Source of the DNA: Bacteroidota bacterium
GTDB lineage: Bacteria; Bacteroidota; Ignavibacteria; UBA10030; SZUA-254
Assembly (NCBI GenBank): GCA_030019075.1
Contig: JASEHD010000012.1
Location: 1-38,842, forward strand
Reading direction: 5' to 3'
Length of the DNA stretch: 38,842 nucleotides
Shown here: one piece after another, positions 18,562-37,500 of the stretch
Layout of the letters: each line of letters opens with the position of its first letter
Numbering within the stretch: the stretch's first letter is position 1
Position numbers and translations under genes: made by a program
Notes under the pieces: model-generated
Databases searched by the model: none
What the model saw: the letters and a program-made list of their open reading frames with translations, nothing else
What the model was told of the DNA's origin: nothing

Positions 18562-19413
18562 TTATTTTGTGATAATGATATTATCAATAAGTCGTGTTGT
18601 GCCAAAGCGAACGGCAAGCGAGATGAGCATACGTTTTCCATCTTGAAGAACCGGTAACTCTTCCAATGTCTCAGCATCTGCAATCGAAATGTAATCTATC
18701 TTTGCTGATGGTTTTGTTGAAATAAGTTTTTTCATCTCACTGATAATTAAGGAACAATTCCATTCACCATCTTCGATGAGCTTTTTGGCTAATTGGAGCG
18801 ACTGATAGAGAGCGACACTTTCTTTCCGCTCTGCCTCTGAAAGATACGTGTTTCTTGAACTCATTGCAAGTCCATCAGATTCACGGACAATTGGAGCGAT
18901 TAGAATTTCAATATCAAAGTTTAAATTCTTCACCATTTGCTGAATGACAATCGCCTGTTGTGCATCTTTTTGACCGAAAACAGCGATGTTCGGCTTGGTT
19001 ATATTGAATAGCTTGGCAACAACTGTTGTAACACCGCGAAAATGTGTTGGACGGGATTTACCTTCAAGTACATTTGTTATTTTCTCAATCTCAATATATG
19101 TTAGGAAGTCACTCGGATACATTTCCTCTCGTGTTGGTATAAACAAAATATCCGTGCCTATCGATCCAGCAAGTTCTTTATCACTTTCTATGTCTCGTGG
19201 ATATGTGTTAAAATCTTCGTTTGGTCCGAATTGTGTGGGATTAACAAATATCGTCGTTACGAGAACATCCGAATTTATCTTTGCGATTTTCATTAAAGAG
19301 AGATGCCCCTCGTGAAGGTATCCCATCGTTGGAACAACGGCAATCTTTTTCGATTGCAAACGGAGTTCATCTGAAATCCGCTGCATCTCTTTTATCGAAG
19401 AGATGATCTTCAT
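18562..19413 (-). CDS. panC: Pantothenate synthetase
   Basis: This 283-residue enzyme condenses pantoate and beta-alanine with ATP to pantothenate, the precursor of coenzyme A. The nucleotide-binding HIGH motif is intact in PTMGYLHEGH (28-37), followed by FVNPTQFGPNEDF, FGQKDAQQ and the KMSKS-like SSRNTYLS. Its ATG overlaps the stop of the beta-barrel gene as ATGA, so a vitamin gene is translationally coupled to an envelope operon. No panB, panD or panE is in the window. Confidence 0.96.
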   Translation of the reverse strand: MKIISSIKEMQRISDELRLQSKKIAVVPTMGYLHEGHLSLMKIAKINSDVLVTTIFVNPTQFGPNEDFNTYPRDIESDKELAGSIGTDILFIPTREEMYPSDFLTYIEIEKITNVLEGKSRPTHFRGVTTVVAKLFNITKPNIAVFGQKDAQQAIVIQQMVKNLNFDIEILIAPIVRESDGLAMSSRNTYLSEAERKESVALYQSLQLAKKLIEDGEWNCSLIISEMKKLISTKPSAKIDYISIADAETLEELPVLQDGKRMLISLAVRFGTTRLIDNIIITK

Positions 19414-21068
19414 CGAAAGTTTACTTTTGCGTTAAGATTGAAGACGATGCCGGGAGCTTCATAACCGCTCCACCATTCATATTTCTGGTTTAAAAGATTT
19501 GACACCTCGAACGATAACAAGGTTCTTGGAATAACATCTGACGATCCGCCCAGACCAACAAGAAATCTACTATCCAGATCGATATTCTGTTTACTCCAGA
19601 ATTCCGCACTTGACCAAACGGTGAGAGGGAAATTGAAATCGTATTCAGCTCTACCGCCGACTTGGACCAGAGGAATCATCGGTAGTTGTGTGCTTTTGCC
19701 CTCTTCATACGTCGGTTGTATAATTCCATTGAAAGTTAATCGACATTGTTCAGTAGGATTGATAGTGCCATTAGCTTTCACGAAAAACTGCACGGCATCA
19801 ACATGTGTAAACCAAATCTTTCCGCTATCGGCTAGAACAACACGTTTATCGGTACTCTTCAAAAATGCACTGCTTAATTCAATTGAAACAATTCCACTGT
19901 TATACCAGAAGGTACTGCCAAGATTGAATGGAATTCTTTCGGGTCTCAAAACGACTTCACGTTGCAAATATGGAATTTGTTTGGATAATTCACCATACGA
20001 TTCGAGGCGCATCTGTGGATTAAACCAAAAACTCAGCTCGCGATCGCGATCTAATTCCCATTTTACGGTTGCAAACGGTATGAGTAATGAACGGCTTCCA
20101 CCATCGCTTGCCGAGCCGTTCTGCAAAAGACCACCAACATACAACGACCATTCATTCATCAGCATCCATTTTGCACTTGTGGATAAGCCGATGAGTGATG
20201 GAGTCTCGGCGGGATGATCGTAATCTAACGTTGAACCTGAATACAGTAACTCGGTTGCAACTCGAACGTTACTAATCCGAGTTTTATATCCAAGTGAAAG
20301 TATTGGTGACACAGCAACAACAGAGGAATCTTTTCCCGGATCGCTATCAGTGATAGACCAGATATCTGCTTTTAATCCGAAATCAAATGCACCTTTTTCA
20401 CGATCAAGCGATTGAAGTCTACCATCAAGCAAAAAATTTGTGCGGCTACGATCCATTGTCGAAACACTAAACATTCCATACGATTCGCTTATGAATCTCA
20501 TCCCACCAAATACGCGGAATGATTTTAAAATATCGTTATCGGTTTTTACGAGTGAATGCGAAGTCATCTGTAAATTGAACGCGCTGCCTTCTGTATTATT
20601 TTTGTGACCCTGTGTTGTGTGAATACCTGCATTGCCGTATATTCCCCATTTCCGCCCTTTGTAATCAACAAATGTACGCAGATTAAATGTAGAGAAATTG
20701 CCTAATCCTCCTTCCGCTGAAACATGCCACGGCACTAAAGGTTCATCATATCTTGGCAGAGACCCAATTGGCAGCGACATTGCCGGACGCTGCATTAAGA
20801 TCGATGTATCGGGCGATGGCGCTTCATAAATGTGGACATCGTATATCTCACCTTTTCTTGCAAAGGGGAGTGAGATTGCTTTCTTACCGACAATTGTAAT
20901 CTCAGGAATTTCCAGCTTCGGCATCGCGGTGGTATCCTTCTTAACAATTTGCTCTTGAGATAAAGTTGATGATGATACCATTAATAAGGATACTGAGATG
21001 TACTTCACAATACTCAAATTAATTTCTCGCAAAGACGCAAAGAGGAAATATTTAATAATCTTAATCAT
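19410..21068 (-). CDS. Outer-membrane beta-barrel protein, TonB-receptor-like but without a plug
   Basis: The 552-residue protein has an N-terminal export signal, a short stretch EITIVGKK (56-63) resembling a TonB box, and then about 430 residues of amphipathic beta strands ending in a receptor-like C-terminus (EVSNLLNQKYEWWSGYEAPG to aromatic-R end). The roughly 130-residue plug domain of TonB-dependent receptors is missing. The annotated ATG overlaps the TPR-gene stop as ATGA. Residues 8-16 (LFASLREIN) derive from a CGCAAAGA repeat, so GTG at 21008 is a rival start that gives a shorter, cleaner signal peptide (VKYISVSLLMVSSSTLS). It lies at the end of the exb-tonB-ompA-TPR operon. Substrate unknown. 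Confidence 0.72.
   Translation of the reverse strand: MIKIIKYFLFASLREINLSIVKYISVSLLMVSSSTLSQEQIVKKDTTAMPKLEIPEITIVGKKAISLPFARKGEIYDVHIYEAPSPDTSILMQRPAMSLPIGSLPRYDEPLVPWHVSAEGGLGNFSTFNLRTFVDYKGRKWGIYGNAGIHTTQGHKNNTEGSAFNLQMTSHSLVKTDNDILKSFRVFGGMRFISESYGMFSVSTMDRSRTNFLLDGRLQSLDREKGAFDFGLKADIWSITDSDPGKDSSVVAVSPILSLGYKTRISNVRVATELLYSGSTLDYDHPAETPSLIGLSTSAKWMLMNEWSLYVGGLLQNGSASDGGSRSLLIPFATVKWELDRDRELSFWFNPQMRLESYGELSKQIPYLQREVVLRPERIPFNLGSTFWYNSGIVSIELSSAFLKSTDKRVVLADSGKIWFTHVDAVQFFVKANGTINPTEQCRLTFNGIIQPTYEEGKSTQLPMIPLVQVGGRAEYDFNFPLTVWSSAEFWSKQNIDLDSRFLVGLGGSSDVIPRTLLSFEVSNLLNQKYEWWSGYEAPGIVFNLNAKVNFR
21028..21043. repeat. CGCAAAGA octamer repeat (2 units) in the barrel gene 5' end
   Basis: Two exact CGCAAAGA units (21028-21035, 21036-21043) lie in the first codons of the beta-barrel gene, within TCTCGCAAAGACGCAAAGAG. 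The periodicity is 8, unlike the 7-base arrays in the Bat cluster. Translated on the minus strand it gives LFASLRE. Confidence 0.6.
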
Positions 21069-24000
21069 CGTCCTAACCTCCTCAAGCGATCCTGTGCATC
21101 TTTTTTAATTGCAGGATCAACGGCCGATCTGACAACTTGCTCATATTCCGAGCGAGCTTGTTTAATATTTCTAAGTCGCTCGTAACATTCACCCGCGCCT
21201 AAATGCGCACGCTCAACAAGCAGGGTATATTCCGTGTACTGCTCAAAAACATCTTTGAATGCTTGCAGTGCATCATTCGGCTTTTTCATTGAAAGATAAT
21301 TTTCACCGATCATCAACAATGCTTCGGCTGCGAGATCATCGTTCCGACGATTTACCAAACTATTCAATGTGTCGAGTGATATTTTATATTCTTTCTTCGA
21401 TGTATGCAGGCGTGCGATTTGAAGTCGGCTGCGATCTGCAAAAACATCATCGGGATGATTTTTCACAACAATCTGAAATTGGCTTAGCGCTTCCTTCGGA
21501 TTTTTAGAATTCAATAATGCTACTCCAAGGTTATATTCAGCTTCAGACAACATAGGTGAATTGGGAAATTTATTCTTGAAATCGTGCAATATATTGGCGG
21601 CGTTTTTGAACTGCTTTGTCTTAATCTGCGCAAGCCCCAGGGCGAGAGTAACATTTGGTGAAATATCAGCATCCGGGAAATCTGAGACTACACGCTCATA
21701 ATATTTGATCGCTTGCTGCGGATTGTTTTCCATTTCGTAAGCACGAGCCATCTGGTAATATGCTTTGGCTTGTACTGTTCGGCTTGGTTTTAGTGCCAAC
21801 AATTTTTGGTACTCGAGCGCAGCCGCTCCGAAATCACCCTGTCCGAAAAAGATATCTCCCTTCTTCAATAATAATTCTTCTTGAGAAATTCCGGCGGTAG
21901 ATGAACTCAACAAAGCATCAATCTGTTCGACTGCGGCTCCGGGTTTACCTTCTGCCTCATATGTGTACTGCAATCCTTGTAAAGCATCGGTAACCAGCGG
22001 ACTTGTTGGAAATTCTTTCGGTACACGTTGATAATAAGTGCGAGCGCTGTCGTATTGCCGAAGATTGTAGAATGCATCTCCCATATTGAACAATACACGC
22101 GGCATCAATTGGCTTTCGGGATATTGACTAATCAGGTTTGAGAATTCAGTGATTGCATGGTTGAATTGATTCTTCGAGAAATATGTCCATCCAATATTGA
22201 ACTGAACTACTTCATTGTAAAGTGACGAGGGAAATCGCATGAGGAAATTCCGGAGATGCTCGATACCCCGCTCCGACTCGCCTCGCTGAATATACGACAT
22301 TGCGATTTGAAATGCAGCATATTCAGCATACTGCCCGTCTTTTTTTAAATTAGCAAGCGAGGCATACAGTGCGCTCGATTTCTCATACTCGCCCATAAAA
22401 AAATAGCAATCTGCTTGGCGAAGAGTTGCATCAAATACACGCTCATTGTTTGGATATTGGGTGATGAAGCGATCGAATGCGTTTGCCGCTTGAGAAAATT
22501 TCTTCTGCTCGAATAGCGTCCATGCAAGTCCGTATTGAGCGTCTGCTCTTTTGGGATTATTCGGAAATAGACGCAGTGCTTCGGCATACGAGCGCTCTGC
22601 CTCAGCGTATTTACCATCCTGATATAATGCCTCTCCACGCCATACGTATGCTTCGGGGGTGCGTTCATCTCTTGTAAACCGTTTTAAAAATTCATTGAAT
22701 AACTCCGCGCTGCTTTTGAATCTTCCTAAATGATAAAGACAAACACCTTCTTGAAACATTGATGGAGCAAGAAGATCAGGTGTACCACTTAATTGACGAA
22801 CACGTGTAAAGGCATACTGCGCATTAGAAAAATCACCCAGCGCTACATTTGTTTCACCGAGCATACGATAAGAGCGTGGACGTTGTTTGCTCTCGGGAAA
22901 CAATCTTGCGGCAAGTTGGAATGCACGACGGGCTTCACGGTAACGCTTGGCGCGGTAATGTAACATGCCTGTTTGAAAATACGAATTCTCCGCCAAATCA
23001 TCGTAAGGTGAGCGCTCGGTAAGTGTATCGAACCTTGCAACAGCTTCCATCTGTCTATCCTGCAACAGTGCAAGTACTGCACTTTGGTATAACGACAGAA
23101 AAGCAAGAGAATCACTGCCAACACCGAGAGAATCAAACTCACGTCTCGCCGCCGTGTAGTTGCCTTGCTTCAGGTATGACCATGCGATGCCATATTGTGC
23201 ATTCCGCGCATAGCGACTTTCAGGAAAATTTCTTACAAAGTTTTTAAATTCCGATTGAGAATTTTCATATTTACCGGATTGCAGACTGGCTTCCGCACGA
23301 ATTAGTGCATACTCCTGACGTTGAGGGTATTCTGGCTTTACATCTTCGAGAAACTTTACGGAGCGAAGTGGATATCCAACTCTCAACGAGAGTGAGGCAA
23401 GACGAATCTTAACCGTATTCGTCAGATTGCTGTTCGGGAATTCATTCTGAAATTTTTCAAGAAGCTTAATAGATTTCTGATATTCACCTCGCCGCTCTAA
23501 AGAAAGCGCCCAGCCGATCAGAGCCATGTCATGATAATTTTTTGCCGATGAATCTTCATAAACCGACTGGACATCCGTCTCGGCTGATTCTGAATCACCT
23601 TTGTCCAGCTTGCACATTGCACGCCAGAAGTATGCAGCTCCCCGTAAGCGGTGTTCATCCGCTTCAGCGAGAAATTTATTCAATGCTTGCATTCCAACAT
23701 CCACACGTTCAGTTTGGAAGCCGCTTACTCCATGAATAAACAAAGCATCATAAAATCTGCGATCGTTTGGATATTCCTGAAGAAAATCGTTCGACCATTG
23801 ATAAGCATTTTCATACTCCTGATCTTCAAATGCAGATTCCAGCAAAATAAAAAGTATATCCCTTTTCTCTTCGATGGTTGGTATAGTAGGATAGATTTGT
23901 TCCAATTCCTGACGTGCGGTATGATAACCATCTGTCTTTTGCCAACCGTGAGCTTTGGGAATATTTTCCGATTGTATCGATTGATTGACAGACGGAACCT

Positions 24001-24160
24001 GTCCGATGAGAGGAGATATGAAAGAAAAAATTATTCCGACAATAAATATCAATCGCAATCCATGCAAGCCGGTCGCTACGGACATAGGATCAAACCATTT
24101 TTTTATGCCCGCAGCAATCTTTGCACTATTGTAAGAAAAGAACATCTTTTCGAGTATCAT
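21065..24160 (-). CDS. Giant tetratricopeptide-repeat envelope protein
   Basis: Starting at ATG 24160, 11 bases after the ompA stop, the product is 1031 residues. The frame opens at GTG 24202 inside ompA, and ATG codons at 24145 and 24085 are alternatives. The last of these would give a classic signal peptide (MSVATGLHGLRLIFIVGIIF to PLIGQ). The rest is a near-continuous solenoid of TPR-like units with spacing of 34-37 residues and recurrent A-x-x-x-F/Y-P motifs (for example FPESRYARNAQYGIAWSYLK). It is probably periplasmic. Its place after exbB-exbD-tonB-ompA is where the TPR protein YbgF/CpoB sits in tol-pal operons, but it is about four times longer. Confidence 0.8.
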   Translation of the reverse strand: MILEKMFFSYNSAKIAAGIKKWFDPMSVATGLHGLRLIFIVGIIFSFISPLIGQVPSVNQSIQSENIPKAHGWQKTDGYHTARQELEQIYPTIPTIEEKRDILFILLESAFEDQEYENAYQWSNDFLQEYPNDRRFYDALFIHGVSGFQTERVDVGMQALNKFLAEADEHRLRGAAYFWRAMCKLDKGDSESAETDVQSVYEDSSAKNYHDMALIGWALSLERRGEYQKSIKLLEKFQNEFPNSNLTNTVKIRLASLSLRVGYPLRSVKFLEDVKPEYPQRQEYALIRAEASLQSGKYENSQSEFKNFVRNFPESRYARNAQYGIAWSYLKQGNYTAARREFDSLGVGSDSLAFLSLYQSAVLALLQDRQMEAVARFDTLTERSPYDDLAENSYFQTGMLHYRAKRYREARRAFQLAARLFPESKQRPRSYRMLGETNVALGDFSNAQYAFTRVRQLSGTPDLLAPSMFQEGVCLYHLGRFKSSAELFNEFLKRFTRDERTPEAYVWRGEALYQDGKYAEAERSYAEALRLFPNNPKRADAQYGLAWTLFEQKKFSQAANAFDRFITQYPNNERVFDATLRQADCYFFMGEYEKSSALYASLANLKKDGQYAEYAAFQIAMSYIQRGESERGIEHLRNFLMRFPSSLYNEVVQFNIGWTYFSKNQFNHAITEFSNLISQYPESQLMPRVLFNMGDAFYNLRQYDSARTYYQRVPKEFPTSPLVTDALQGLQYTYEAEGKPGAAVEQIDALLSSSTAGISQEELLLKKGDIFFGQGDFGAAALEYQKLLALKPSRTVQAKAYYQMARAYEMENNPQQAIKYYERVVSDFPDADISPNVTLALGLAQIKTKQFKNAANILHDFKNKFPNSPMLSEAEYNLGVALLNSKNPKEALSQFQIVVKNHPDDVFADRSRLQIARLHTSKKEYKISLDTLNSLVNRRNDDLAAEALLMIGENYLSMKKPNDALQAFKDVFEQYTEYTLLVERAHLGAGECYERLRNIKQARSEYEQVVRSAVDPAIKKDAQDRLRRLGR

Positions 24161-24171
24161 CTCTTTAATAA

Positions 24172-26052
24172 TTATTCTGGTACGATATCGATAATAACAC
24201 ACCTATTATAAAAACGCTCTTCCGGTAAATTATTATCGAACGGCGCCCGGCGAACATCTTCACCAAATCCATAAGTATCGAACTTCACATTTTTCTTACC
24301 TGCTTTTAAAAGTGCGCGTTCAACAACATTCATCGCTTCTTGTGAACGATTCTGCGAAAGCTTCAAATTATGGCTTTCTTCGCCTACGATATCGGTATGA
24401 CCATGAATGATAACACTCGCTCCATCAGGAATTAACCGGGTTACAGATTGAGTGAGGAAGCGTTCATAAGTAGCAACCGTTTTCGATTGATCAAATTCGA
24501 AAAGAATACTAAAGCGATAACCCGGCGCTTCTTCCGGCTCGTCGGACTGGACGAGTTTCATCGATTCTTCTTTCTTCACGACCTTGCCATCGCTTGTTTG
24601 TCCTTCCAATTCAACTTTATATTTACCTTGCATCTTTCCGCCTAAAATTATTTTGCCGGAGATTCTTTCTTGCTGTGTAGTAAATGGACCGAACCGTGTT
24701 ACCTTTCCATTTTCATCCGTAAGAATAATCGACCACGATGCAAAATAATCTTGAGCATTTCTTACGCTAAACAACACATCGCTGTCGAGCGGATCTTCTT
24801 GCAATGATATAATTTGTACCGGCTCAAGAAGCTCCGGTGAGGATGAAGAAATTTCAACACGACGATCTTCTGGCACAACCAAATCAAGCTCACGCGTTGC
24901 ACCGGGCAAAACTGAAGGAACAGATGGCTTGGCAGAACCCTTCGTATTAATCCTATTTGGATCAATTCCAAAAACACCCTCAAGATAAGCTCCTATTGCA
25001 ACAGCCAACGCCTCACCACTTGCCCTACCTTGCTCAGACGATCCAGTGAGCGTAACGGTAGTTCCTGGATACTTCCTCATTCTATCACCAAGGATATTGA
25101 GTATGTTATGATACACAGTCATCTGGCGGCGTGATCTGCCTGTTAAATCTTTCGGCTCCGGTTGTAAGAGATGCTCTTCTTTGAATGTTTCGGTTTGTTC
25201 ACTTGTTAATCTTATATATCGGTTTGGGATCACTGCCGAATTTTGGTCGAAGAAAATATAATTACGTATCGGGAATGTTTCCTGAACTTTTCGTTCTTTC
25301 GGTATGATTCTCGGGGCACGTACAGAGAACTGAACTTCACGCTCAACTTTTTCCTTTATCTCTTTTGTATTTCCAAACTTTATTGCTGCTCCAAATCGCA
25401 GTGTTGTTAATCCCCAGTCTATCTCCGAACGTGGACCCTGTCCAAAGTGAACTGCTAAGAATGGTGACAAAACTGTTTGCCATTCACTTTCCGGATTTGA
25501 TAATGAGAATTCATATCCGGCGCCAATCTGTCCACCAATTACAGTACCGCGGGTATTATCAAAATCACCTTTTGTTTCAACACCAAGCGATTGTTCCAAA
25601 GTAAAAGATTTCGCCACATTGAATCCGATACGAGGACCTACAAAAAAGTAAATCGGTTCCGCAAAAGGTGCGATACGTACAGATGGCTCAAGACTCAAGT
25701 AATTCATCGATGTTGAAAGTGAGAGCGTCGTATCACCTGAATTCACATCGCTAAACGATCCTCCTCTACCATCAAAACCAAAAGTCAGCATACCACCCCA
25801 AACAGAATGCGGACGATACTCGAGCAGGGGTGAAATGAAAAGACCTAATCCCGATCCCTTTGTGAACGGAGTTGAAACTGAATTACCTGTGTTCAAGGAT
25901 TTAAAATCACTGCTGTAAAAATTTATATTTCCACCAAGCACTCCGCCGAACCACCACTCTGGCTGGATTCGTTTTATTTCTTGAGCATGTAGAGATGAAA
26001 AGAAAAGTGAAAAAATAAAAACAGAATAAAAAGTTCTTTTTGTGAAATTCAT
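24172..26052 (-). CDS. OmpA-family protein with barrel and two OmpA-like segments
   Basis: The 626-residue protein has a signal peptide (MNFTKRTFYSVFIF to HAQ) and a beta-barrel region to about residue 230. A canonical C-terminal OmpA peptidoglycan-binding domain (about 510-626) has FEFDQSKT, GHTDIVG (D553), LSQNRSQEAMNVV (R569) and a late NRCV. Between barrel and C-terminus, residues about 265-400 repeat the pattern weakly (IFFDQNSAVI, TVTLTGSSEQG, EDRRVEIS), with GSS where GHTD is expected. This segment looks like a second, degenerate OmpA domain unlikely to bind peptidoglycan in the same way. The protein should link outer membrane and cell wall next to the TonB/Exb motor encoded upstream. 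Confidence 0.85.
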   Translation of the reverse strand: MNFTKRTFYSVFIFSLFFSSLHAQEIKRIQPEWWFGGVLGGNINFYSSDFKSLNTGNSVSTPFTKGSGLGLFISPLLEYRPHSVWGGMLTFGFDGRGGSFSDVNSGDTTLSLSTSMNYLSLEPSVRIAPFAEPIYFFVGPRIGFNVAKSFTLEQSLGVETKGDFDNTRGTVIGGQIGAGYEFSLSNPESEWQTVLSPFLAVHFGQGPRSEIDWGLTTLRFGAAIKFGNTKEIKEKVEREVQFSVRAPRIIPKERKVQETFPIRNYIFFDQNSAVIPNRYIRLTSEQTETFKEEHLLQPEPKDLTGRSRRQMTVYHNILNILGDRMRKYPGTTVTLTGSSEQGRASGEALAVAIGAYLEGVFGIDPNRINTKGSAKPSVPSVLPGATRELDLVVPEDRRVEISSSSPELLEPVQIISLQEDPLDSDVLFSVRNAQDYFASWSIILTDENGKVTRFGPFTTQQERISGKIILGGKMQGKYKVELEGQTSDGKVVKKEESMKLVQSDEPEEAPGYRFSILFEFDQSKTVATYERFLTQSVTRLIPDGASVIIHGHTDIVGEESHNLKLSQNRSQEAMNVVERALLKAGKKNVKFDTYGFGEDVRRAPFDNNLPEERFYNRCVIIDIVPE

Positions 26053-26060
26053 AAATTTTG

Positions 26061-26777
26061 TTACTCCTTTTTTAATATGAAATTAAATGTAATTTTTCCT
26101 ATTTGTGGTTTTTGTTCAAATTGAGGGGGCAACGGATCGAACCGCCACGTTTGGAGAGCTGAAACTGCTTCGCGTTCTAACAACTCATCACTTTTCAAAA
26201 GTGGGATTATTCCTGTTACCGAGCCATCAGGTAATACTGAAAACTGCAGCTTTACAGGCATCTCTTTGTCCGTTCCGTCAGGATACTGAGGAATCTTTCC
26301 GCTCAACAAACGTCGTGAGCCGGCACCCGCCCATTCAATAGAATATCCGGTTGACTTCCCTGCACCGCCGGCAAGACCTTCTTTAGCACGGCGACGACGG
26401 GTTGGGCTTGTGCCTTCTGAAGCAACTTTTTCTTTGCTTGTCCCGACAGTACTTTTTGTTTTTTCTTTTTTCGCTGGTGCGATCACATCGCTTGACGGAT
26501 TTTTAATTTCCGGAACATCAAGTTTTGATTCTTCCGTTGTACTACCGGTTTGCGCCGCTTCCTTCCCGCGATTTGGATCGACTTCCGATTGTGTAATGCT
26601 TTGATTAGGCGCACCGCTGCTTCCGCCCCAATCAAGTTCAATCAATGGCTGGGGTTTCGGCTGCCAAACAAGCGTAAGCGATATGATTATTGCGATGATG
26701 ATGTGAAGAATCAGACTCCCGATTGCGGCAATCGTCCGATTTTTCTTATCTTCAGTATAGACAGATGCGTTGATCAC
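26061..26777 (-). CDS. TonB/TolA-like energy-transducer protein
   Basis: The 238-residue protein has one N-terminal membrane helix (about 18-39, SLILHIIIAIIISLTLVW), a proline/lysine/serine-rich spacer (about 45-140) and a C-terminal TonB-type domain. That domain has IPQYPDGTDKEMPVKLQFSV, PDGSVTGIIPL and EREAVSALQTWRFDPLP. It would carry proton-motive energy from ExbB/ExbD to outer-membrane partners. The start codon is GTG 26777, overlapping the exbD stop as GTGA. It is followed by the OmpA gene with a short gap. TonB versus TolA cannot be decided by sequence alone; the neighbours favour a Tol-Pal-like role. Confidence 0.85.
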   Translation of the reverse strand: MINASVYTEDKKNRTIAAIGSLILHIIIAIIISLTLVWQPKPQPLIELDWGGSSGAPNQSITQSEVDPNRGKEAAQTGSTTEESKLDVPEIKNPSSDVIAPAKKEKTKSTVGTSKEKVASEGTSPTRRRRAKEGLAGGAGKSTGYSIEWAGAGSRRLLSGKIPQYPDGTDKEMPVKLQFSVLPDGSVTGIIPLLKSDELLEREAVSALQTWRFDPLPPQFEQKPQIGKITFNFILKKE

Positions 26778-27190
26778 TTAACCTCTTTAACAGCTTCTGT
26801 TGCAATAAACAGCTTCGTAGCCCCGATACCTTTTGCAATATCAAGAATTTCAACAACATCCTGAAGTGTTAAATCCTTATCAGCTCTTACGACAATTTGT
26901 TGATCAGCATCTTTTTGTATGAGTGTGGAAAGTTTTGCAGCGAGCTGATCTTTCGGCACTGCTTCATTATTCACAAAAAGTTGTTTATCTTTTTGGATAG
27001 AAATAGAAACGGTTTTCCGCATCGGTGGTTGACCGACCGCTGTTTTGGGGAGCGTAACGTTCATCCCTCTTGTATTAGCAAATGAAAATGTTAGAAGAAA
27101 AAATATTAAAAGCTGCATTACAACATCCGTAAGCGATGAGAAGTTGAATGTATCGAGATACCGTGAGCGATGAGCGGGCCTAAAATTCAT
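26774..27190 (-). CDS. exbD: ExbD/TolR-family biopolymer transport protein
   Basis: The 138-residue protein has a short cytoplasmic N-terminus, one membrane helix (about 19-39) carrying the conserved aspartate of the proton path (TDVVMQLLIFFLL, D22), and a periplasmic domain ending LDIAKGIGATKLFIATE. It forms the stator with ExbB, whose stop lies 2 bases upstream. Whether it serves TonB receptors or a Tol-type system is undecided, because ExbD and TolR are hard to separate by sequence. Confidence 0.92.
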   Translation of the reverse strand: MNFRPAHRSRYLDTFNFSSLTDVVMQLLIFFLLTFSFANTRGMNVTLPKTAVGQPPMRKTVSISIQKDKQLFVNNEAVPKDQLAAKLSTLIQKDADQQIVVRADKDLTLQDVVEILDIAKGIGATKLFIATEAVKEVK

Positions 27191-27192
27191 TA

Positions 27193-27867
27193 CTAATTAT
27201 CCTCGCGTCGTAATTTTATTGTCTTCTCATTATTAAGGTTTTGGCTGCCTCCGTAGATGATTTCTTCTATTGCATCAAGTGTATCACGACCTATGCGCTC
27301 ACAAGAAGATGCAACTGACTGAACTTTATTCACAAGGTAGTTATAAGCCATCGCAACGGGAATACCAACGGATAAACCAAAGACGGTTGTTATTAATGCT
27401 TCCCATATACCATCAGCAAGATCAGCGGGAGACGGTTGGCCTGCGGCAGACGCGACTGATTGAAATGCGCCAACCAAACCTGTAACCGTACCGAGGAAGC
27501 CGAGCATTGGTGCAATACCTGCGATTGTTGCAAGTATGCCGAGATGTCGCTCGAGATGTGTCATTTCTTCCCGACCTTGATCTTCCATCGCCTGACGCAC
27601 ACGCATCGAGCCGTGATGGATTTTTTCCAAACCGGCACCGACAATACGGCCTATTGGAGTTGTTTCCTGAATACACATTTCTTGCGCCAATTGAAGGTTT
27701 TTTCCTTCCAACATCTTTCTAAGTCGAATCTGAAATGCACTTGCAGGTGGAGTGGCTTTCTTTAAAGTAAGCCATCTTTCTAAAATAATATAAATACCGG
27801 CGAAGGAACATAATAAAATGGGGTACATGATGATACCCCCGCGCGAAAACCAGGTAAATATTTCCAT
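27193..27867 (-). CDS. exbB: ExbB/TolQ/MotA-family proton channel protein
   Basis: The 224-residue protein has three membrane segments (about 10-28, 108-135, 150-175) and the family block LATIAGIAPMLGFLGTVTGLV...F, then ALITTVFGLSVGIPVAMAYN. It forms the pentameric channel around ExbD. It is the first gene of the exb-tonB-ompA-TPR-barrel-panC series. The 83-base gap from accD is AT-rich, but I find no convincing promoter hexamer pair in it. Confidence 0.93.
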   Translation of the reverse strand: MEIFTWFSRGGIIMYPILLCSFAGIYIILERWLTLKKATPPASAFQIRLRKMLEGKNLQLAQEMCIQETTPIGRIVGAGLEKIHHGSMRVRQAMEDQGREEMTHLERHLGILATIAGIAPMLGFLGTVTGLVGAFQSVASAAGQPSPADLADGIWEALITTVFGLSVGIPVAMAYNYLVNKVQSVASSCERIGRDTLDAIEEIIYGGSQNLNNEKTIKLRREDN

Positions 27868-29521: not shown

Positions 29522-29958
29522 CTCTTAGTATCTCCAATTTTTTCAATCCTGATCTCACGCTCGTTCTCATTTGCTCCGAGTTTCAGGAAAACATTGAAGC
29601 GGTCAGGCGGCAGAAGTTTTTCCACCCTGTCAGCCCATTCGATTACGCAAACACCATCATTGTAGATGTACTCATCGAAACCAATTTCTTTCAATTCAGT
29701 TATTGAGTTCATTCTATAGAAATCGAAATGAAAAATTTTACAGCATTTACCGTGATATTCGTTCACGATCGTGAAGGTCGGGCTTGATACATGCTCAGCT
29801 ACACCTAAACCTTTACAAAGACCTTTGATTAAGCGTGTCTTACCAGTTCCCAAATCACCGAAGAGCGCCACAACACTGCCGGGTGTCAGTGTTTCCCCGA
29901 ATTGAAAACCAACTGATATTGTCTCATCTTCTGATTGTGTAATGAATGATTGGTTCAT
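29518..29958 (-). CDS. tsaE: TsaE, tRNA t6A modification ATPase
   Basis: This 146-residue P-loop protein has Walker A GDLGTGKT (34-41), SSPTFTIVNEY (58-68), HFDFYRM (77-83) and the family motif CVIEWADRVEKLLP (104-117). TsaE hydrolyses ATP to drive turnover of the TsaBD complex. The start overlaps porX as ATGA and the stop overlaps tsaB, so the three are probably translated as a coupled series. Confidence 0.95.
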   Translation of the reverse strand: MNQSFITQSEDETISVGFQFGETLTPGSVVALFGDLGTGKTRLIKGLCKGLGVAEHVSSPTFTIVNEYHGKCCKIFHFDFYRMNSITELKEIGFDEYIYNDGVCVIEWADRVEKLLPPDRFNVFLKLGANENEREIRIEKIGDTKS

Positions 29959-31517
29959 TGTTTCGGTTTTAGTTTTATAACGGGTAAAATCATTTCTTCC
30001 ATTGATATGCCGCCATGTTGGAAGCTATCTTTATATTTGTTTAAATACTGATGATAATCTGTTGGATAAACGAAAAAATAATCTTCTTTGGCTATGATAT
30101 AGTTAATCGTTACACTTCGCTTTGGCAACCGATATTCTAACGGATTTTTGATAAAGATCGCATGTCGTTCATCTACTTTTAGATTACGGCCAAATTTATA
30201 TCGTAAATTGGTTGATGCTTCTCTGTCTCCAATAACTTTAACGCCTCGTAAACACCTGATACTTCCATGATCGGTTGTGAGAATGAGAGTAACATTTTTT
30301 TGCCGTGAAAGAGTTCGCAGCATCGAGAGAAGCGAAGAGTGCATAAACCACGCTGACGTCAAAGACCTGTAAGCCGATTCATCAGGGGCGATTTCTTTGA
30401 GAAGCTGTGAATCCGATCTGCCGTGTGCCAGCATATCAACAAAATTGACCACAATGGCTGTCAAACGGTTTTTTGTATAGGAATTGATATTCTGCTCAAT
30501 ATTCCGACCGAACTCGGCATCCAATATTTTCACATATTTCGATTCGGGTTTCAATTGAATTTTCCGCCGCTCAAGCAAGTTATCTAAAAATTGGTGCTCG
30601 AACCTATTTCGGCTGTTATCGTCATCTTCCCATTGTTCCCAAAGTTCCGGAAACCTGACCTCAAGCTCTGCGGGCCATGCACCACTGAAAATAGCGTTGC
30701 GTGAATATGGAGTCGCGGTTGGAAGAATTGAGAAATAATTCTCGCGGGTAATTTCAAAATATTCCCTTAGCACGGATTCCATTATCATCCATTGATCATA
30801 ACGCAGACAATCGATCACGAAGAAAAAAACCGATTTATTTGTATCGCGTAATTCAGGAATAAGATACCTTTCAATAACATCATTTGATAGGGTCGGACGT
30901 GTTTGTTGTTCTAACCAGTGTCGATAGTTTCTTTCAACAAATTTTGAAAATTCAACATTACACTCGCGGACTTGATCGGAGAGGGTCTGCTTAAGTCCAA
31001 GGTCTGGATGTTGATCCAATTCGATTGCCCATTCAACCAAGCTTGTATTAATACCTGCCCAATCGCTGAATGTAAGATTCGTTTGAAGTGCATGTGAGAT
31101 GACATTGAACTCTTTTACATAATCGCGTGACACTGCAGCTCCAGTTATTTTTTTCCCCTCTAAAAATTTCTTACAAGCTAACAATACCTGACTGGGATTG
31201 ACCGGTTTTGTCAGATAATCGCTAATCTTGACCCCAATCGCATCTTCCATCAATCCCTCATCCTCATTTTTTGTTATCATTACTACAGGAAGATCTGGTC
31301 GGATATCTTTAATTTTAGAAAGAGTTAATAATCCCCCCATTCCAGCCATCATCTCATCTAAAAAGATGAGATCATAAATTTTAGCATTTACCAATGCAAT
31401 CGCATCTTCTCCATTCGTTGCAGTATCTACAGAATACCCTTTTTCCGAAAGTAAAAGAATGTGTGAGCGTAATAATTCAATCTCATCATCAACCCAAAGT
31501 ATACGACCTTTTTTCAT
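29955..31517 (-). CDS. porX: PorX-type response regulator with PglZ (alkaline-phosphatase-like) domain
   Basis: The 520-residue protein has a receiver domain (1-118) with acidic pocket D10/D11, phosphoacceptor D54, T82 and K104. A helical linker follows, then a PglZ domain from about residue 225: FFFVIDCLRYDQW (D236), PTATPYSRNAIFSG, and later TTDHGSIRCL. This is the architecture of PorX, which in Porphyromonas and Flavobacterium works with the kinase PorY to control type IX secretion genes and has metal-dependent phosphodiesterase-type activity. No helix-turn-helix output domain is present. It lies 64 bases downstream of sprA, a core secretion gene. No porY is in the window. Confidence 0.92.
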   Translation of the reverse strand: MKKGRILWVDDEIELLRSHILLLSEKGYSVDTATNGEDAIALVNAKIYDLIFLDEMMAGMGGLLTLSKIKDIRPDLPVVMITKNEDEGLMEDAIGVKISDYLTKPVNPSQVLLACKKFLEGKKITGAAVSRDYVKEFNVISHALQTNLTFSDWAGINTSLVEWAIELDQHPDLGLKQTLSDQVRECNVEFSKFVERNYRHWLEQQTRPTLSNDVIERYLIPELRDTNKSVFFFVIDCLRYDQWMIMESVLREYFEITRENYFSILPTATPYSRNAIFSGAWPAELEVRFPELWEQWEDDDNSRNRFEHQFLDNLLERRKIQLKPESKYVKILDAEFGRNIEQNINSYTKNRLTAIVVNFVDMLAHGRSDSQLLKEIAPDESAYRSLTSAWFMHSSLLSMLRTLSRQKNVTLILTTDHGSIRCLRGVKVIGDREASTNLRYKFGRNLKVDERHAIFIKNPLEYRLPKRSVTINYIIAKEDYFFVYPTDYHQYLNKYKDSFQHGGISMEEMILPVIKLKPKQ

Positions 31518-31581: not shown

Positions 31582-34500
31582 TTAGATGGAGATATGTATA
31601 TCAAGTCCTCCTTCGTTGGTAGTTGTGCCGAAGATAAGTGAACCGGTTGCATCAGGCTCAGTTTTTGAATACCGATAGAAGATCGCAGCAGTAACACGTG
31701 TACTAAGCACATAGCGGATTCGCGGCTCGAGAGTGGTTCGCGTATTCCCCTCCAAAGGTATTCCCTCTTGATCTATCGAGAGATACTGGGGTTCATAACG
31801 CCGTCGGGTATTTGTTGTTCTTGAATAGCTAAAACTAAAATCGACATCATTCGAGAGTGACCACCCGAATAACGGAAACGAAAATCCGCGCCTTGAATAG
31901 GATAAACTTAGCGCCATCTCTTGTGTCATCGTTGATACAATATTTGGCTGAGAAGCGGCAAGATTCAAATCATATGAAGTCGTTGTGCCATAACGGAAAT
32001 TGCCTGAAAAATTTCCTTTCAAAAGTTGTTTGAATGTCATATTCAAACCCACCAACGGAGTGAACCCATAACTAATTCTTTCGCCATCTGTGCGTTCGCC
32101 TTTACCTGGGTAGCTCCGGAAATCGCGGCGGAAGGATGATGTATAGTTATGTTCTAATGATAAACGATCGAAAGCGTAATTTAAAAAGGATATTTTATCG
32201 ATCCCATCCCAACGAATAGTCCAGTTGGCTCGTGGTGCATATTGTCCGAACAATTTTGAAAGAAATGGAAGTGCTTCAAGACCTTTTTCAAATGATTCTG
32301 CGAGGGCAACGTTCGTCGGCTGTCCTTCATAAATGAGCTTGTCGTATCGTTTCCCAACCTCTTCGAGATTACTCTTGAATGATTTAAATAAGAACACCGG
32401 CGGGAAGGTAACAAAGGAGCGTTCAATACTTCCACTGGTTGTCGGCTCTCCTGGCTTCGGTACGCCGAGACTATCGGTAACAACGGTTGTGTTCCTCGAA
32501 TAATGCCATCCAACTTTCCAATTAAAATCAATTGTTGCCCCTTTCCAGAGAGGTCGGTTTGTCCGTAAGGCTATGTTATTACTCTGCGAATATTGATCGG
32601 TGAAAGAAGCTTTTGGAGCTCTGAGTCCGGGTGTTACTTTCCAGCCGAGAAATGGAAATTTCGATTTTGGTGAAAAACGCAGCGTGCCACTGGGATCTGC
32701 AATTAATCCTAATTGATACAAACGTGACGGACCATATTCAAGACGCGAGCCCTCGAAAGGTAAACGTCCCCAGAAATTTTGAAAACCTGTACTCCCGACA
32801 ACCGCACCATTCCCCGAACGATTACCCTGTGTGTACGAAATGTTGATTGTCTCATAATCCAATAACGGAATTTTAATAAGATACTTTGTAACTGTTTTTA
32901 ACTGTGAGAAAATATTTGAAATATTCGATGGAGAAGCTTTTTCTTCCTGCTTTTTGGTAGAATCTTGAGTTTGACTTTCAGTTTCTTTTGGGCTTCGGGC
33001 TCGTTGATCTGGCTTTGTTGGAGCTGCGGCAGTGATAGGTTTTGATTCGAACCATGGGTCGGTCAATGATTTTAATCGGAAACCTAAAGAAAGCGTAATG
33101 TTATTGTCAAAACCAGCACTCTTTCCTATGTCCCCTTTCTGGAAATTGTTCTGCCACGCATAACCGACTGAATACCCTGCGCTTAAATCAAAGTATTTTG
33201 GAATATCAAGAATATTTGGAATTTTCGGTTTTGTGTTGATTGCTACCCGTTGCCCATATCTGTTATCTTGGCCACGGAAAAACAAACTCTTCATAATTTC
33301 CATGAATCCTCGCCCGATTGAATCGTTGTCGAGGGGAAGAAGGTTTCTATCTATGGATAAGCTATAGTCACCGGAGATATTCGATAACCCACCTTCGGTG
33401 AATTTCCAACCAAAACCAGCCGATTTGCTTCCACCAAAATTCCGGGTTTCACGAAACGCGCTTTTTGCGCGAGGAATTTCGTATGATCGTGATCGCTGAC
33501 CTCCTATCCCTGTCGAAATATTTGTAATAGGAATATAATAGAATTTCCAGTTTTTGTATTCATCAAAAAAGATTATACCGTCGAAGAGTCTTTTAAACGG
33601 CTGAAAATAATAATCACCGGGTAACGATACACCGTAATTGACACGCAGACTCCATTGCCAAGATTTACGGGCTATAAATGCTGGATCACGATCGCTTGTT
33701 GTTCCATAATTGACAGAAAGAGAAAGCTTGGTAAAAGTATCACGAATGTACCATGCCGGAGTAGGAGGAACAATTTTAAAATTCGAAAGAGAATATGTAT
33801 CTCTAACATTTAACGTTTGAGATTCATTAACAATTGTTTTCGATGCATCTGGGGTCGCTGCTCTATTTGCAACTTCCTGAACAACAATGTCAGTATTAGG
33901 AAGATACCGAGGTTTAATAAGATTCTCCGAGTGTGAATAGGCAATCGGAATAGACGTACCTTGCCAGTCCTGTGGAAATAGTTTGTCAAGTAAAACGTTT
34001 GCGTTTACTCCCCAGTTAATGTTCGTCGTTTGATTGCCAAAGCGTTGATCCAAACCATGGAAGTTTTGATCCGTCTGGGCATAATTAAACGATACCGCTC
34101 CAAGATCGGCAAGTTTCATCTGTGAACCAAAGCGAAAAGCAATGCCCGGCGAATTATCTACTTCTACTAACCTAAGTTCATTAACCCACACTTCGCCCCG
34201 GAGTATTGATGTTCCTTTATTCTTGATGCCTATTGAAATCTCGCGTATCTGCCTTAACGATGGATTTCCTTTGACACCGTAAGTCGCCCCATCGGGTCCT
34301 TCATCAACCTGTTGGGTGTATACCGTTTTAAGAAGAGAATCTGGGCGGACTGCTTTCACCGATGTTAGCTCCCCAAAATTAATCTTAACTTCATTATTTG
34401 CCAAATCCCAACCCGGATGAATTAGATGACGATATTCGTAGAAGTTCATCGTATCGGAACCGAAACGAAGAAAAATTTCAGCATCGCCCGGATTGAATGT

Positions 34501-37500
34501 TGGATCACCATGTACAAACATTTTCATAGATTTATAATTAAAAATATCGAGCGGGCGAACTGTGAAATATTTTACAACTTCCCTCGAGATATCCGGGGGC
34601 AGCTCTTTTACGAGAAGAGCTAACGATTGTTCGTTAGCTTCGATAATCTGATTTGGATCGGTGCGATCTTTTTCCCTCACAATCCCTAACTGATTCCACT
34701 CACGGGCATATTCAGGATTATCCTCAATATTTACGATAGACACTTTCAATAAGGAATCATTCCGCATCCGTTCTTGCCACTGGTTGCCGATAAGGTTGAT
34801 CTCGGCGATGCGAATAGATATAGGATGTGCAAATCCGGAGACCCAGATACGAATGTGTTGAACATTTTGAAGTATTTCTTGAGATGACGAACCACCGATG
34901 ATGCGTGCTGTCTCAAGTAATGGAATACGAAATTGATACCATCCATTATTACCACCACCTACATGATAGATATTTTTATAAGGACCTGTACCAGTTGAAT
35001 CATAATAAACTGTATCGAGTGGTAACTCATATTCAACGTATTGCTCCGCGAGATCAACGCTGCCATTACCATTTAAATCCTCAGTATTCGGCAGTAAGCC
35101 GGAAGGGTCTCGTTTATTATCCTCGGACCCGTTAAATTTCCGCAGATCAATTCCATCACCGTAAGGCAACCAATTATCTCCACTCGGGTCGGAAGGATCT
35201 ACATCAGGATCGCCGCTGTTCGATGTCAGAAATGATGCATAAGCAATACTTTCTTCAGAATTATTTTTCATATCCAATCCAACATCCTCACCTTCATTTA
35301 AAATTCCGTTCGGAATCCCTAATGGGTTTGTTGAAGTTCTAAGGATATCTTCGGAATTCAACTCACGATTCGAAACCACGTCCTCGCTGACACGCCCGAG
35401 GTTAATATAAATCCTGCCACGCCGTAAATCTTCTAAATTATTCTCATTGCTCGTAGCTTGCATCCAGATTTCAAGATAGGAAATATTTTGTTCGAGGATA
35501 CTTCCGGCAGTTGAACCGATATAACGAGTAAGTCCATTCCAATTTTTCCGGCGCTCCTCTGCATTATCAAATTTTCCGGTGTTGGGACCTATATTTTGCC
35601 TATGTAAAGATGAATCTAAGTTTGGGGAGAAATTATACAATCCACGATGGTTTGGGTCGTAATCTAAATTTAAAACAGTTACCTGATTTTGTCCTGCGCG
35701 CGTCCTGCGGTTGGGCCATATGTCTTCGGTAACAACATCGGTTGGTAATCTATTGTACCAAATCAGACGTCCCTTTGCGTATGTCTTCTCCATTTCACGA
35801 ATACCCAATCCTAACCGAGTATAGGATGGCGGGCTTGACAAAGACCATGCAGTGTACATAATTGGGAATGGAATGGAGCGCCGAGTTCCTTCAAAATCAT
35901 CGAGGTATGCAATGCTTGCACCACGATCACCTGAAACGGAACTCTTTTTTGTGTTTGCATCGGGGAGCATGTACGCTGCCTCTCCGCTAAATTGTAATGT
36001 CGACATTTCTTTTGTTCTGAAAATCGGAAGTGCATCAATCGCATCTGTAATAAATGGGACGTTGGTTGAAGTGGAAGCATCGATACCGAGCATCGTATTA
36101 TTCGTTGGCTCTTCACCAATGCGAACTTTGTCGCTAAGGGTTTCTTGATTTAGATTCATTATGGTGAAACCTAAATTTGTATTCTTAAATGTTTTCAACT
36201 CGCCGCGAGCACCGATAAGTGTTTTTGATGCAATCTGGAAAAGATCGTTTTGCTCATATTTTACCTGAACATTCGCACCGGGTAACAACGCTTCAGGTTT
36301 TCGGATAACTACTTCTCCAACTATATAATCAACAGTATAATCAACATTTGGAGTTAGCGGATTGCCATTTAATAAAACCTGAACACTACCTTCCACAAGA
36401 TTAAAACCGAGATTGTATCGACTCGATTGAACACCAGCCGCTTCTACTTTAATCGTGTATCGGTTTTTAATTGAGTTGTTTTGTGCCGCCTGTGCGGTAG
36501 TGTCATATATATCACTAAATAATAATGAGTCGGATATCGGTTTTCCAATCTTTCTAAAATAACGAACGATGGTTGAATCAAACGGTCGTAATGACGGAAA
36601 TATTATAACTCCTTTATCTACATCAACTGTAAAACCGGGCATAAAATCAAAAGAATTATCAGGATTGGAAGCATTATATTGGTCAAAACGGTCAAGCCCC
36701 AATACTGTTAAAAGATTTTCCCCATAAATCTCGTCAACATCATTTCCTTCAGTACGCCGCCAAATTTTCAGGTTAAATCCTTCCTTCTTGAGATTCGTTG
36801 CCCGAACAGAATAAAAATTCTTCAGGAGCAAATCCCACGCTGGTCTATGGCTTGGATAGAGAATCTCTGGTTTTACCAACTTGAGATACATAATCGTATC
36901 GTTCCCGATTACGTGTCCACCATAAATCTGGTTAATATTATTTTTACCTACGGTTGTATAAGAGACTGCTATTACCTGATTTTCGTTGTAACTTGTCTGC
37001 AATGTTATGTAACCCGCATATTGATCGACCTTATAATCTTTATTTGGGTCAAGCTGAATAAATAATCCCTTATAATATCTTCCATTACCGGTACTGAGTT
37101 GATTTATCTGTCCATCAGAATACCTCTCATCTGTCTGGTGCGATGGAAGGTCTATATATGATATTGCCTCTCTCGCAATCTGTCTATACTGTGGTGTAGA
37201 AGGAACACTAAGAAAGACATCAAGCTGAATAATCTGATTTTCTTGAATTTCCGGAGTTAGGGTTAGAACCTGAGATTGTCGTAATTCTTCGAAATATTTT
37301 ATATATACTGTATCAAGGAAGAAATTGTTCTTGCTATATTCGTGAGGTTGGATATTAATTTCCTGTGTTGTTGCACCGCCGGATACTGTGAGCTCTTTCG
37401 TTTGTCCTTTCTTTTGTGACAGAAGGGTTGTCAACGTGAGTGGGCCTGCTTGAAGTTTTGATTTGATCCCAAATAGAGCTTGTCCGCCACCTACAAGTGA

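Follow-up and report, generated by a model that had tools for sequence, protein, structure and literature searches.

The six genes at positions 19410-27867 of contig JASEHD010000012.1 (assembly GCA_030019075.1), from a member of the Bacteroidota, most probably encode the parts of one coherent force-transducing machine. All six lie on the minus strand, in the order exbB-exbD-tonB-ompA-TPR-barrel. Most of the phylum seems to lack the Tol-Pal system, and this cluster may do its job. A fuller reading, in which the cluster is an ancient, widespread and Tol-Pal-like force-transducing machine of the envelope, is in our judgement evenly balanced between right and wrong. The window referred to below is the whole stretch of DNA that was analysed, 38,842 nucleotides long. 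It is the entire contig (C33) of a genome of 3.18 Mb that is 98.3% complete and divided into 226 contigs.

A sequence-only reading of the window had proposed the block, and all six genes are present where it had placed them, five of them with support from Pfam. An ExbB/TolQ-type motor subunit (224 amino acids, 27193-27867; MotA_ExbB, E = 7.6e-33) is followed by an ExbD/TolR-type motor subunit (138 amino acids, 26774-27190; ExbD, E = 4.1e-26). The third gene encodes a TonB/TolA-like force transducer of 238 amino acids (26061-26777), which matches TonB_C (E = 2.8e-8) in its C-terminal domain at 26073-26258 and scores 36.1 bits against TIGR01352, where the cut-off is 27.1. Next comes an OmpA-family protein of 626 amino acids (24172-26052; OMP_b-brl_2 at 2.3e-9 and OmpA at 5e-8 in Pfam), with a peptidoglycan-type OmpA domain at its C-terminus (24202-24501). 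The last two products are a giant TPR protein, 1045 amino acids long as called (21065-24202; TPR_6 at E = 6.5e-76 in 11 stretches, besides many other TPR models), and a plug-less barrel of 552 amino acids (19410-21068). Pfam names no family for this barrel, which was assigned to the TonB-dependent transporter (TBDT) type from an AlphaFold2 model and structure matches. Gaps of 2 base pairs between exbB and exbD and of 8 between tonB and ompA are found within the block. The remaining neighbours overlap, among them exbD and tonB as well as the barrel gene and panC. Candidate promoters and terminators in the window were no more numerous than in shuffled sequences.

In E. coli the order is tolQ-tolR-tolA-tolB-pal-cpoB. 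As had been claimed, the block follows this order with TolB left out. The barrelled OmpA, with its OMP_b-brl_2 and OmpA matches, occupies the position of Pal, and the TPR protein is about four times the size of YbgF (the 792-base-pair cpoB of E. coli encodes 263 amino acids). One part of the claim has to be corrected, namely that the barrel stands in place of TolB. It is an extra gene after the TPR gene, not in TolB's position, and a TolB job for it is unsupported.

The fold of the barrel is that of a TBDT. In its AlphaFold2 model (13 sequences; mean pLDDT 76.9, pTM 0.69), a helical signal segment is followed by predicted disorder at residues 32-110 and then by about 22 strands at residues 114-550 (19419-20729), in agreement with the 22-strand barrel by which TBDTs are recognized. 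The best 50 Foldseek rows and the best 50 VIA rows listed for this model were all TBDTs, and VIA-align superposed it on BtuB (2guf) with a Z of 23.5 and an rmsd of 3.3 over 416 aligned residues. By sequence, a profile of 24 barrel rows likewise matches PDB entries of TBDTs, in their C-terminal barrel (E = 5.7e-12).

The absence of a plug, already noticed from the sequence, stands. Strands begin at residue 114, and the Plug profile matched none of the 24 rows of the barrel profile, the window's included. Among 58 further barrels it matched two, with the best E-value for L221 of family f30; these are consistent with being the two f30 barrels that were later excluded, both of which belong to the 58. 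The barrel is of the TBDT type without a plug, and so not a complete TBDT. Apart from these two Plug matches, neither the window's barrel nor the relatives scanned have a Pfam or NCBIfam family of their own, and they match at most weak or general barrel or TBDT models. With no family name to hold them together, the genes of the cluster are probably scattered under generic annotations.

Behind the signal peptide, within the predicted disordered region, lies a conserved leader segment (residues 50-74, 20847-20921). It reads PKLEIPEITIVGKKAISLPFARKGE in the window and has LPEFVITG-like letters in many other families. In 24 rows, mean pairwise identity at residues 48-64 is 0.28, whereas the barrel has 0.18 and the linker (residues 77-110) 0.12; in 16 rows, the values are 0.51 for the segment, 0.26 for the barrel and 0.25 for the linker. 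By its position and by resemblance, the segment is likened to a TonB box. We propose that it consists of a putative TonB box and a following motif.

Genomes of the same phylum, taken here to be the Bacteroidota in the wide sense, were surveyed for similar clusters. Searching with the single barrel sequence gave matches in 64 of 120 relatives. A 16-row barrel profile gave matches in 363 of 392 phylum genomes at E 0.001, ordinary TBDTs included. Gene neighbourhoods were then compared in 86 genomes, which represent 51 family codes, at a single locus per genome; the window's own genome is not among them. The loci were selected for their barrel match, for a spread over families and for enough room on the contig, and their neighbours were scored with purpose-built profiles. 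A TPR gene was counted as adjoining the barrel within 1.5 kb on the same strand, and any other neighbour was counted within 9 kb on the same strand.

A TPR gene adjoins the barrel at 73 of the 86 loci. This amounts to 73 of the 78 testable ones, since six regions ended at the barrel (L046-L049, L052, L053) and two f30 matches are plug-bearing TBDTs. The latter (G123, G197) lie beside chelatase-like genes and were dropped as members of the cluster. TonB was found near the barrel at 55 loci, a SPOR-domain protein at 54, ExbB and ExbD at 47 each and an OmpA-type protein at 12, with TPR, ExbB, ExbD and TonB all together at 25. By family code, the TPR-barrel pair occurs in 45 of 51, ExbB nearby in 31 and SPOR in 36; by a rough estimate, ExbB would lie within 9 kb by chance in about 1% of cases. 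Thus, the block is not lineage-specific, as the sequence-only reading had supposed. Restricted to particular lineages are the presence of a barrelled OmpA at the locus (six of six f1 loci and four of four f2 loci) and the gene order seen in the window.

The order of the genes differs between families. In f1 it is (exbB-exbD)-tonB-ompA-TPR-barrel-panC-glmU-like, in f2 it is TPR-barrel-exbB-exbD-tonB-ompA, and in f4 to f6 it is TPR-barrel-SPOR-exbB-exbD-tonB. The genes stay together even though their order has changed cyclically, as would be expected of a functional unit. The gene set is conserved, and its exact order is permuted between families.

All five of the SPOR proteins sent to Pfam match PF05036. 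Some of them (L089:10847-12841, L034:2444-3640) carry an N-terminal HU-like DNA-binding domain, which is odd beside a wall-binding end; with the HU model, one protein of the set scores over the cut-off and a second below it. At another locus (L111:1476-3136), the barrel gene is split into two overlapping open reading frames (ORFs), a frameshift or a sequencing error.

The motor of the cluster can be told apart from that of the Ton system. In a tree of 75 ExbB/TolQ sequences, all 48 cluster ExbBs, including that of the window, fall on one branch (SH-aLRT 98), and 20 unlinked Ton-type ExbBs form a separate branch (98). Three TolQ sequences of f32 and the TolQ and ExbB of E. coli fall outside both. 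The cluster branch also takes two rows that were first labelled otherwise. One (L119) is the same sequence as the cluster row L199, and the other (L123) is a cluster-type copy in an f1 genome, flanked by ExbD and TonB. In this tree, then, the cluster ExbBs are one clade, apart from Ton-type ExbB and from canonical TolQ. The window's ExbB reaches 105 of the 221 bits of the tolQ equivalog and its ExbD 58 of the 127 bits of tolR, both being over the Pfam cut-offs. The only other MotA_ExbB match in the genome belongs to an exbB-exbD-exbD-tonB operon on contig C46. This operon was rejected as a candidate; it is Ton-type by both order and tree.

The transducer of the window has a histidine in its predicted transmembrane segment (IGSLILHIII), which is its most hydrophobic segment. 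According to PMC12204202 and to general background, such a histidine would contact the motor. The paper states that TolA and TonB are indistinguishable by sequence and structure prediction alone. With TonB_C over its cut-off and the transmembrane histidine in place, the protein has both features by which a TolA-like transducer was recognized here.

Across the 55 loci with a TonB, the histidine goes together with the motor. It is present in 32 and absent in 3 of the loci that have ExbB, and present in 8 and absent in 12 of those where no ExbB was found (Fisher p 7e-5, uncorrected for kinship). One of the histidines (G293) lies at the edge of the segment, and one TonB (G013) has its start cut short. 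A strict S-x3-H motif is found in only 30 of the 55 and was replaced by this test.

Because the barrel is that of a TBDT by fold and by C-terminal sequence, and because TonB and ExbBD often lie beside it, the cluster might instead encode a TonB-gated transporter. Its plug would be supplied in trans, by the leader, the TPR protein or some other partner, and TonB would open it for the uptake or export of large substrates. We regard this as unlikely. SPOR proteins near 54 of the 86 loci point to the cell wall, and the cluster's motor clade differs from the Ton-type one. Moreover, one full-type barrel match is listed for most genomes (two for G099), a number more in keeping with housekeeping than with nutrient uptake.

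No tol-pal operon was found in the window's own genome. The sequence-only reading had named such an operon, together with poor conservation of the block, as what would speak against it; no such operon was found, and the gene set is conserved. No protein of the genome reaches the cut-off of TIGR02800 for TolB (best E = 6.4e-24), and none is over that of TIGR02802 for Pal. This absence is not absolute, given a genome 98.3% complete in 226 contigs. The absence of TolB had also been claimed from the sequence, and the sole TolB_N match in the genome, on contig C207 (L007:8615-11536), agrees with it. This protein is a Ser/Thr kinase with what by eye are TPRs, and was rejected as TolB. Its TolB_N-like stretch is a trap for searches for TolB that use Pfam only. 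Two OmpA proteins were rejected as Pal: one on C153 (503 amino acids) is below the Pal cut-off and has by eye no lipobox or propeller, and one on C215 (205 amino acids) is below both the OmpA and the Pal cut-offs.

Among 198 phylum genomes that are at least 90% complete, 43 belong to f32 and 155 to other families, and the two systems divide between them. TolB is over its cut-off in 41 of the 43 f32 genomes and in none of the 155 others; the remaining two f32 genomes score 340.5 and 332.9 bits, against a cut-off of 343.15. Pal is over its cut-off in 43 of 43 and in 0 of 155. The f32 locus L190, in which the tolA-like and propeller domains were recognized, has the order tolQ-tolR-tolA-like-tolB-pal-TPR; L192 has the same order, except that pal is present twice and a foreign gene separates tolA from tolB. 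Of 62 genomes searched for the FMO protein (PF02327), all 43 of f32 have it, and besides them just G123 of f30; f32 is on this ground read as the Chlorobiaceae.

The barrel shows the opposite distribution. The 24-row profile matches 142 of the 155 non-f32 genomes at E <= 4.5e-26. Leaving out the plug-bearing G123, a full-type barrel occurs in 141 of 155 (E <= 8.8e-32). No full-type barrel was found in the 43 f32 genomes, whose best match is at 1.1e-18; the matches listed for them all cover just part of the profile, none beginning before position 281, and two of the genomes have none.

That the cluster occurs where TolB and Pal are missing, with a Tol-Pal-type motor in common, would also suit a machine for outer-membrane lipid or lipoprotein homeostasis. 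Tol-Pal itself has been tied to lipid homeostasis, and the motor could move lipids rather than constrict the envelope. We think this quite improbable, as Pfam finds no lipid-binding domain in the six proteins and the SPOR neighbours suggest the septal wall. A division role like that of Tol-Pal is suggested by the TPR protein, by the SPOR neighbour and by the lack of TolB and Pal in genomes with the cluster.

The OmpA and TPR proteins would link such a machine to the wall. The AlphaFold2 model of the OmpA-family protein (mean pLDDT 71.6, pTM 0.43, with the C-terminal part below 50 in places) has an 8-strand barrel of the OmpA/Ail type at residues 33-228. In our reading of the model, the middle may hold an OmpA-like alpha/beta domain (about 265-375) and a beta-sandwich (about 410-502). 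Foldseek finds OmpA and Ail with this model, and Pal at rank 45. Invariant in 11 sequences are H552-T-D554 and L565-S-x2-R569, which we take to be part of the wall-binding motif.

The TPR protein scores 337 bits against TIGR02795 (tol_pal_ybgF, cut-off 90), a score inflated by the repetition of TPRs, and the TPR proteins of the relatives also score as tol_pal_ybgF. A lipobox-like pattern, loosely defined, was found in 5 of 68 of these relatives. In the window, the called start of the TPR protein is a GTG inside the overlap with ompA, and its N-terminus looks signal-peptide-like by eye. Since the called start overlaps ompA, the true start is probably downstream.

These scores bring to mind CpoB. 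The TPR protein could be a CpoB-like coordinator of peptidoglycan synthesis, which regulates septal synthases while the motor resets it and the barrel merely anchors it. Consistent with this are the SPOR proteins near 54 of the 86 loci, the OmpA wall-binding domain in the window and the 13 loci at which the TPR-barrel pair has no motor nearby. A transporter barrel and a conserved leader motif exceed the needs of an anchor, so that we hold this alternative to be very doubtful; it may also be just a different view of one and the same machine. Chance, with a spare Ton operon beside unrelated envelope genes, would explain why the order varies between families and why 39 of the 86 barrels have no ExbB nearby. 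It is, however, extremely improbable and already contradicted by a set that recurs permuted, by the 31 of 51 family codes in which ExbB does lie near the barrel, and by the single ExbB clade.

A Tol-Pal-like machine built from these parts might work as follows. ExbB and ExbD would form a proton-driven motor in the inner membrane that moves the TonB-like transducer. The C-terminal domain of the latter would span the periplasm and bind the TonB-box-like segment that the barrel carries on its disordered leader. As the barrel contains no plug that could be pulled out, the force would enter the outer membrane via the barrel and draw the membrane inward. The TPR protein, of some 1,000 amino acids, would be a long periplasmic scaffold beside the barrel. 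The machine of most other lineages would be brought to the denuded septal wall by a partner with a SPOR domain, and in the lineage of the window the barrelled OmpA would provide the tether between wall and outer membrane. The likely job of such a machine would be to constrict and stabilize the outer membrane at division. The envelope machine imagined in the sequence-only reading thus keeps its gene set, reaching from the motor to the outer membrane, and its Tol-Pal-like layout, and loses its restriction to one lineage. The TonB-box-like leader, the derivation of the barrel from a TBDT and the SPOR partner found in other lineages had escaped that reading.

Several observations weigh against this reading. 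In the neighbourhood of the barrel, 39 of the 86 loci showed no ExbB and 31 no TonB. At five loci (f37, f38, f53, f58, f62) the TPR gene is missing where SPOR, ExbB, ExbD and TonB are present. Thirteen TPR-barrel pairs among the 86 loci have neither SPOR, ExbB nor TonB within 9 kb, mostly outside the window's class (f31, f33, f36, f40, f41, f42, f52, f54; the contig of the f52 pair ends at the barrel). Lone pairs of this kind include L096, L098, L102, L194, L197, L200, L205, L211 and L212, and their motor, if any, lies elsewhere. SPOR was found neither on the window's contig nor at any of the ten loci read in f1 and f2. Where ExbBD is present without a TonB match, at 12 loci, nothing TonB-like was seen after exbD; 4 of these loci have an ORF of at least 180 amino acids there, none TonB-like by eye.

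The evidence from the whole phylum has its limits as well. Neither system appears, among the matches listed, in 14 of the 155 non-f32 genomes (four in f27, four in f45, two in f30, and one each in f5, f10, f37 and f49), and the complementary distribution is a single evolutionary contrast, since f32 is one family. The Plug test spans 82 barrels out of a larger set in which 141 genomes have the full type. The ExbB tree comes from a quick search and is unrooted, with long branches for the E. coli rows. The letters of the leader motif differ in distant families and are hard to recognize in some (L095, L098, L102). Finally, the data show the gene set and its adjacency, the single motor clade, the plug-less barrel fold, the conserved leader motif and the distribution complementary to TolB and Pal, and from these we infer the binding of TonB to the motif, the pulling on the barrel, the TPR scaffold, the septal location and the function in division.

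Natural variants bear on the motor in particular. None of the 13 genomes read in f11, f18, f19, f20, f24, f25 and f26 has an ExbB at the locus (for example L085, L086, L087, L088, L091, L093 and L202). Twelve of them have a scored TonB, and in all 12 it lacks the transmembrane histidine. The loss of both ExbBD at the locus and the histidine in seven families counts against a machine that depends on its motor, for it means that the machine can lack an obvious one. These loci possibly represent a motor-less, passive version. A different situation is found in f1, where eight genomes at least 90% complete (G001, G004-G008, G010, G013), all close to the window's genome, have a single ExbB each, on the Ton branch in all eight. 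In the five of them that were read at the locus (L019-L023), exbBD is absent there and ompA-TPR-barrel is kept. One of these loci (L023) is also without a TonB match, and the TonBs of the other four keep the histidine. A single Ton-type ExbB alongside a locus without exbBD suggests that one motor may serve two systems.

It is conceivable, though on balance we would not yet assert it, that most Bacteroidota have replaced Tol-Pal with a proton-driven TonB pulling on a plug-less barrel, and that some lineages then lost the motor and retained a passive form of the machine. If so, an old nutrient gate became a handle that draws the outer membrane inward at division. A transporter barrel would then have been converted to the transmission of force, possibly with a motor-less derivative. 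No description of the cluster was found in the open-licence PMC literature, a search in which preprints and most subscription papers fall outside, and passages of PMC12611786 contain nothing on it.

Two other proteins are encoded near the block in the window. A protein of 2313 amino acids, a few genes upstream of the block (31582-38523, minus strand), matches SprA_N (E = 5.2e-59), which Pfam labels a motility related/secretion protein; SprA is the type IX secretion translocon. A second protein (29955-31517, minus strand) combines a response-regulator receiver with a PglZ domain and is kept near the block in six of six f1 loci.

The cluster can be compared to several known systems. Like Tol-Pal, as found in E. 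coli (L230, L232) and in the Chlorobiaceae-type loci (L190-L192), it has a motor pair and a TonB/TolA-like transducer and, in the window, an OmpA-type wall-binding protein at the place of Pal with a TPR protein next to it. Unlike Tol-Pal, it has no TolB propeller and no Pal lipoprotein, its TPR protein is four times larger, there is an extra plug-less barrel, SPOR is a neighbour in 36 of 51 families, and its ExbB clade is distinct from TolQ. With neither TolB nor Pal among its parts, it does not count as a Tol-Pal system.

With the Ton system and its TBDTs, such as BtuB and FhuA, it shares homologues of ExbB, ExbD and TonB, the barrel fold and an N-terminal box-like segment. It differs in the plug-less barrel, in its own motor clade and in the TPR and SPOR neighbours, and its motor coexists in the same genome with a separate Ton-type exbB-exbD-exbD-tonB operon. 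CpoB/YbgF resembles the cluster's TPR protein, which is over the TIGR02795 cut-off, whereas the latter has 1045 amino acids instead of 263, 11 TPR_6 stretches and a place beside the barrel.

The comparison with PorE concerns another stand-in for Tol-Pal. In PMC12204202, whose main text contains no word that starts with SPOR or Ignavibacteri, PorE is a fusion of CpoB, TolB, carboxypeptidase and Pal parts that is proposed as a wall tether in Bacteroidetes, and so likewise a proposed substitute for Tol-Pal in the same phylum. As described there, PorE is one protein, whereas the cluster consists of several genes with a motor. Of PD40 and CarboxypepD, neither turns up in the window's OmpA, in which a search up to an E of 1 found only OMP_b-brl_2 and OmpA. 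Outside f1 and f2, OmpA-type matches at the loci occur in f8 and f42; that in f8 is a PD40-CarboxypepD-OmpA protein and not a barrelled OmpA. This PorE-like protein (L117:3822-5339, G118) lies upstream of TPR-barrel-TonB. Some 10 kb past the barrel, the same genome also encodes a barrelled OmpA like that of the window (L044:11794-13788). Next to PorE, the present cluster would be a second candidate with concrete genes: it is widespread, and it combines a plug-less TBDT barrel and a neighbouring SPOR gene with an ExbB clade of its own.

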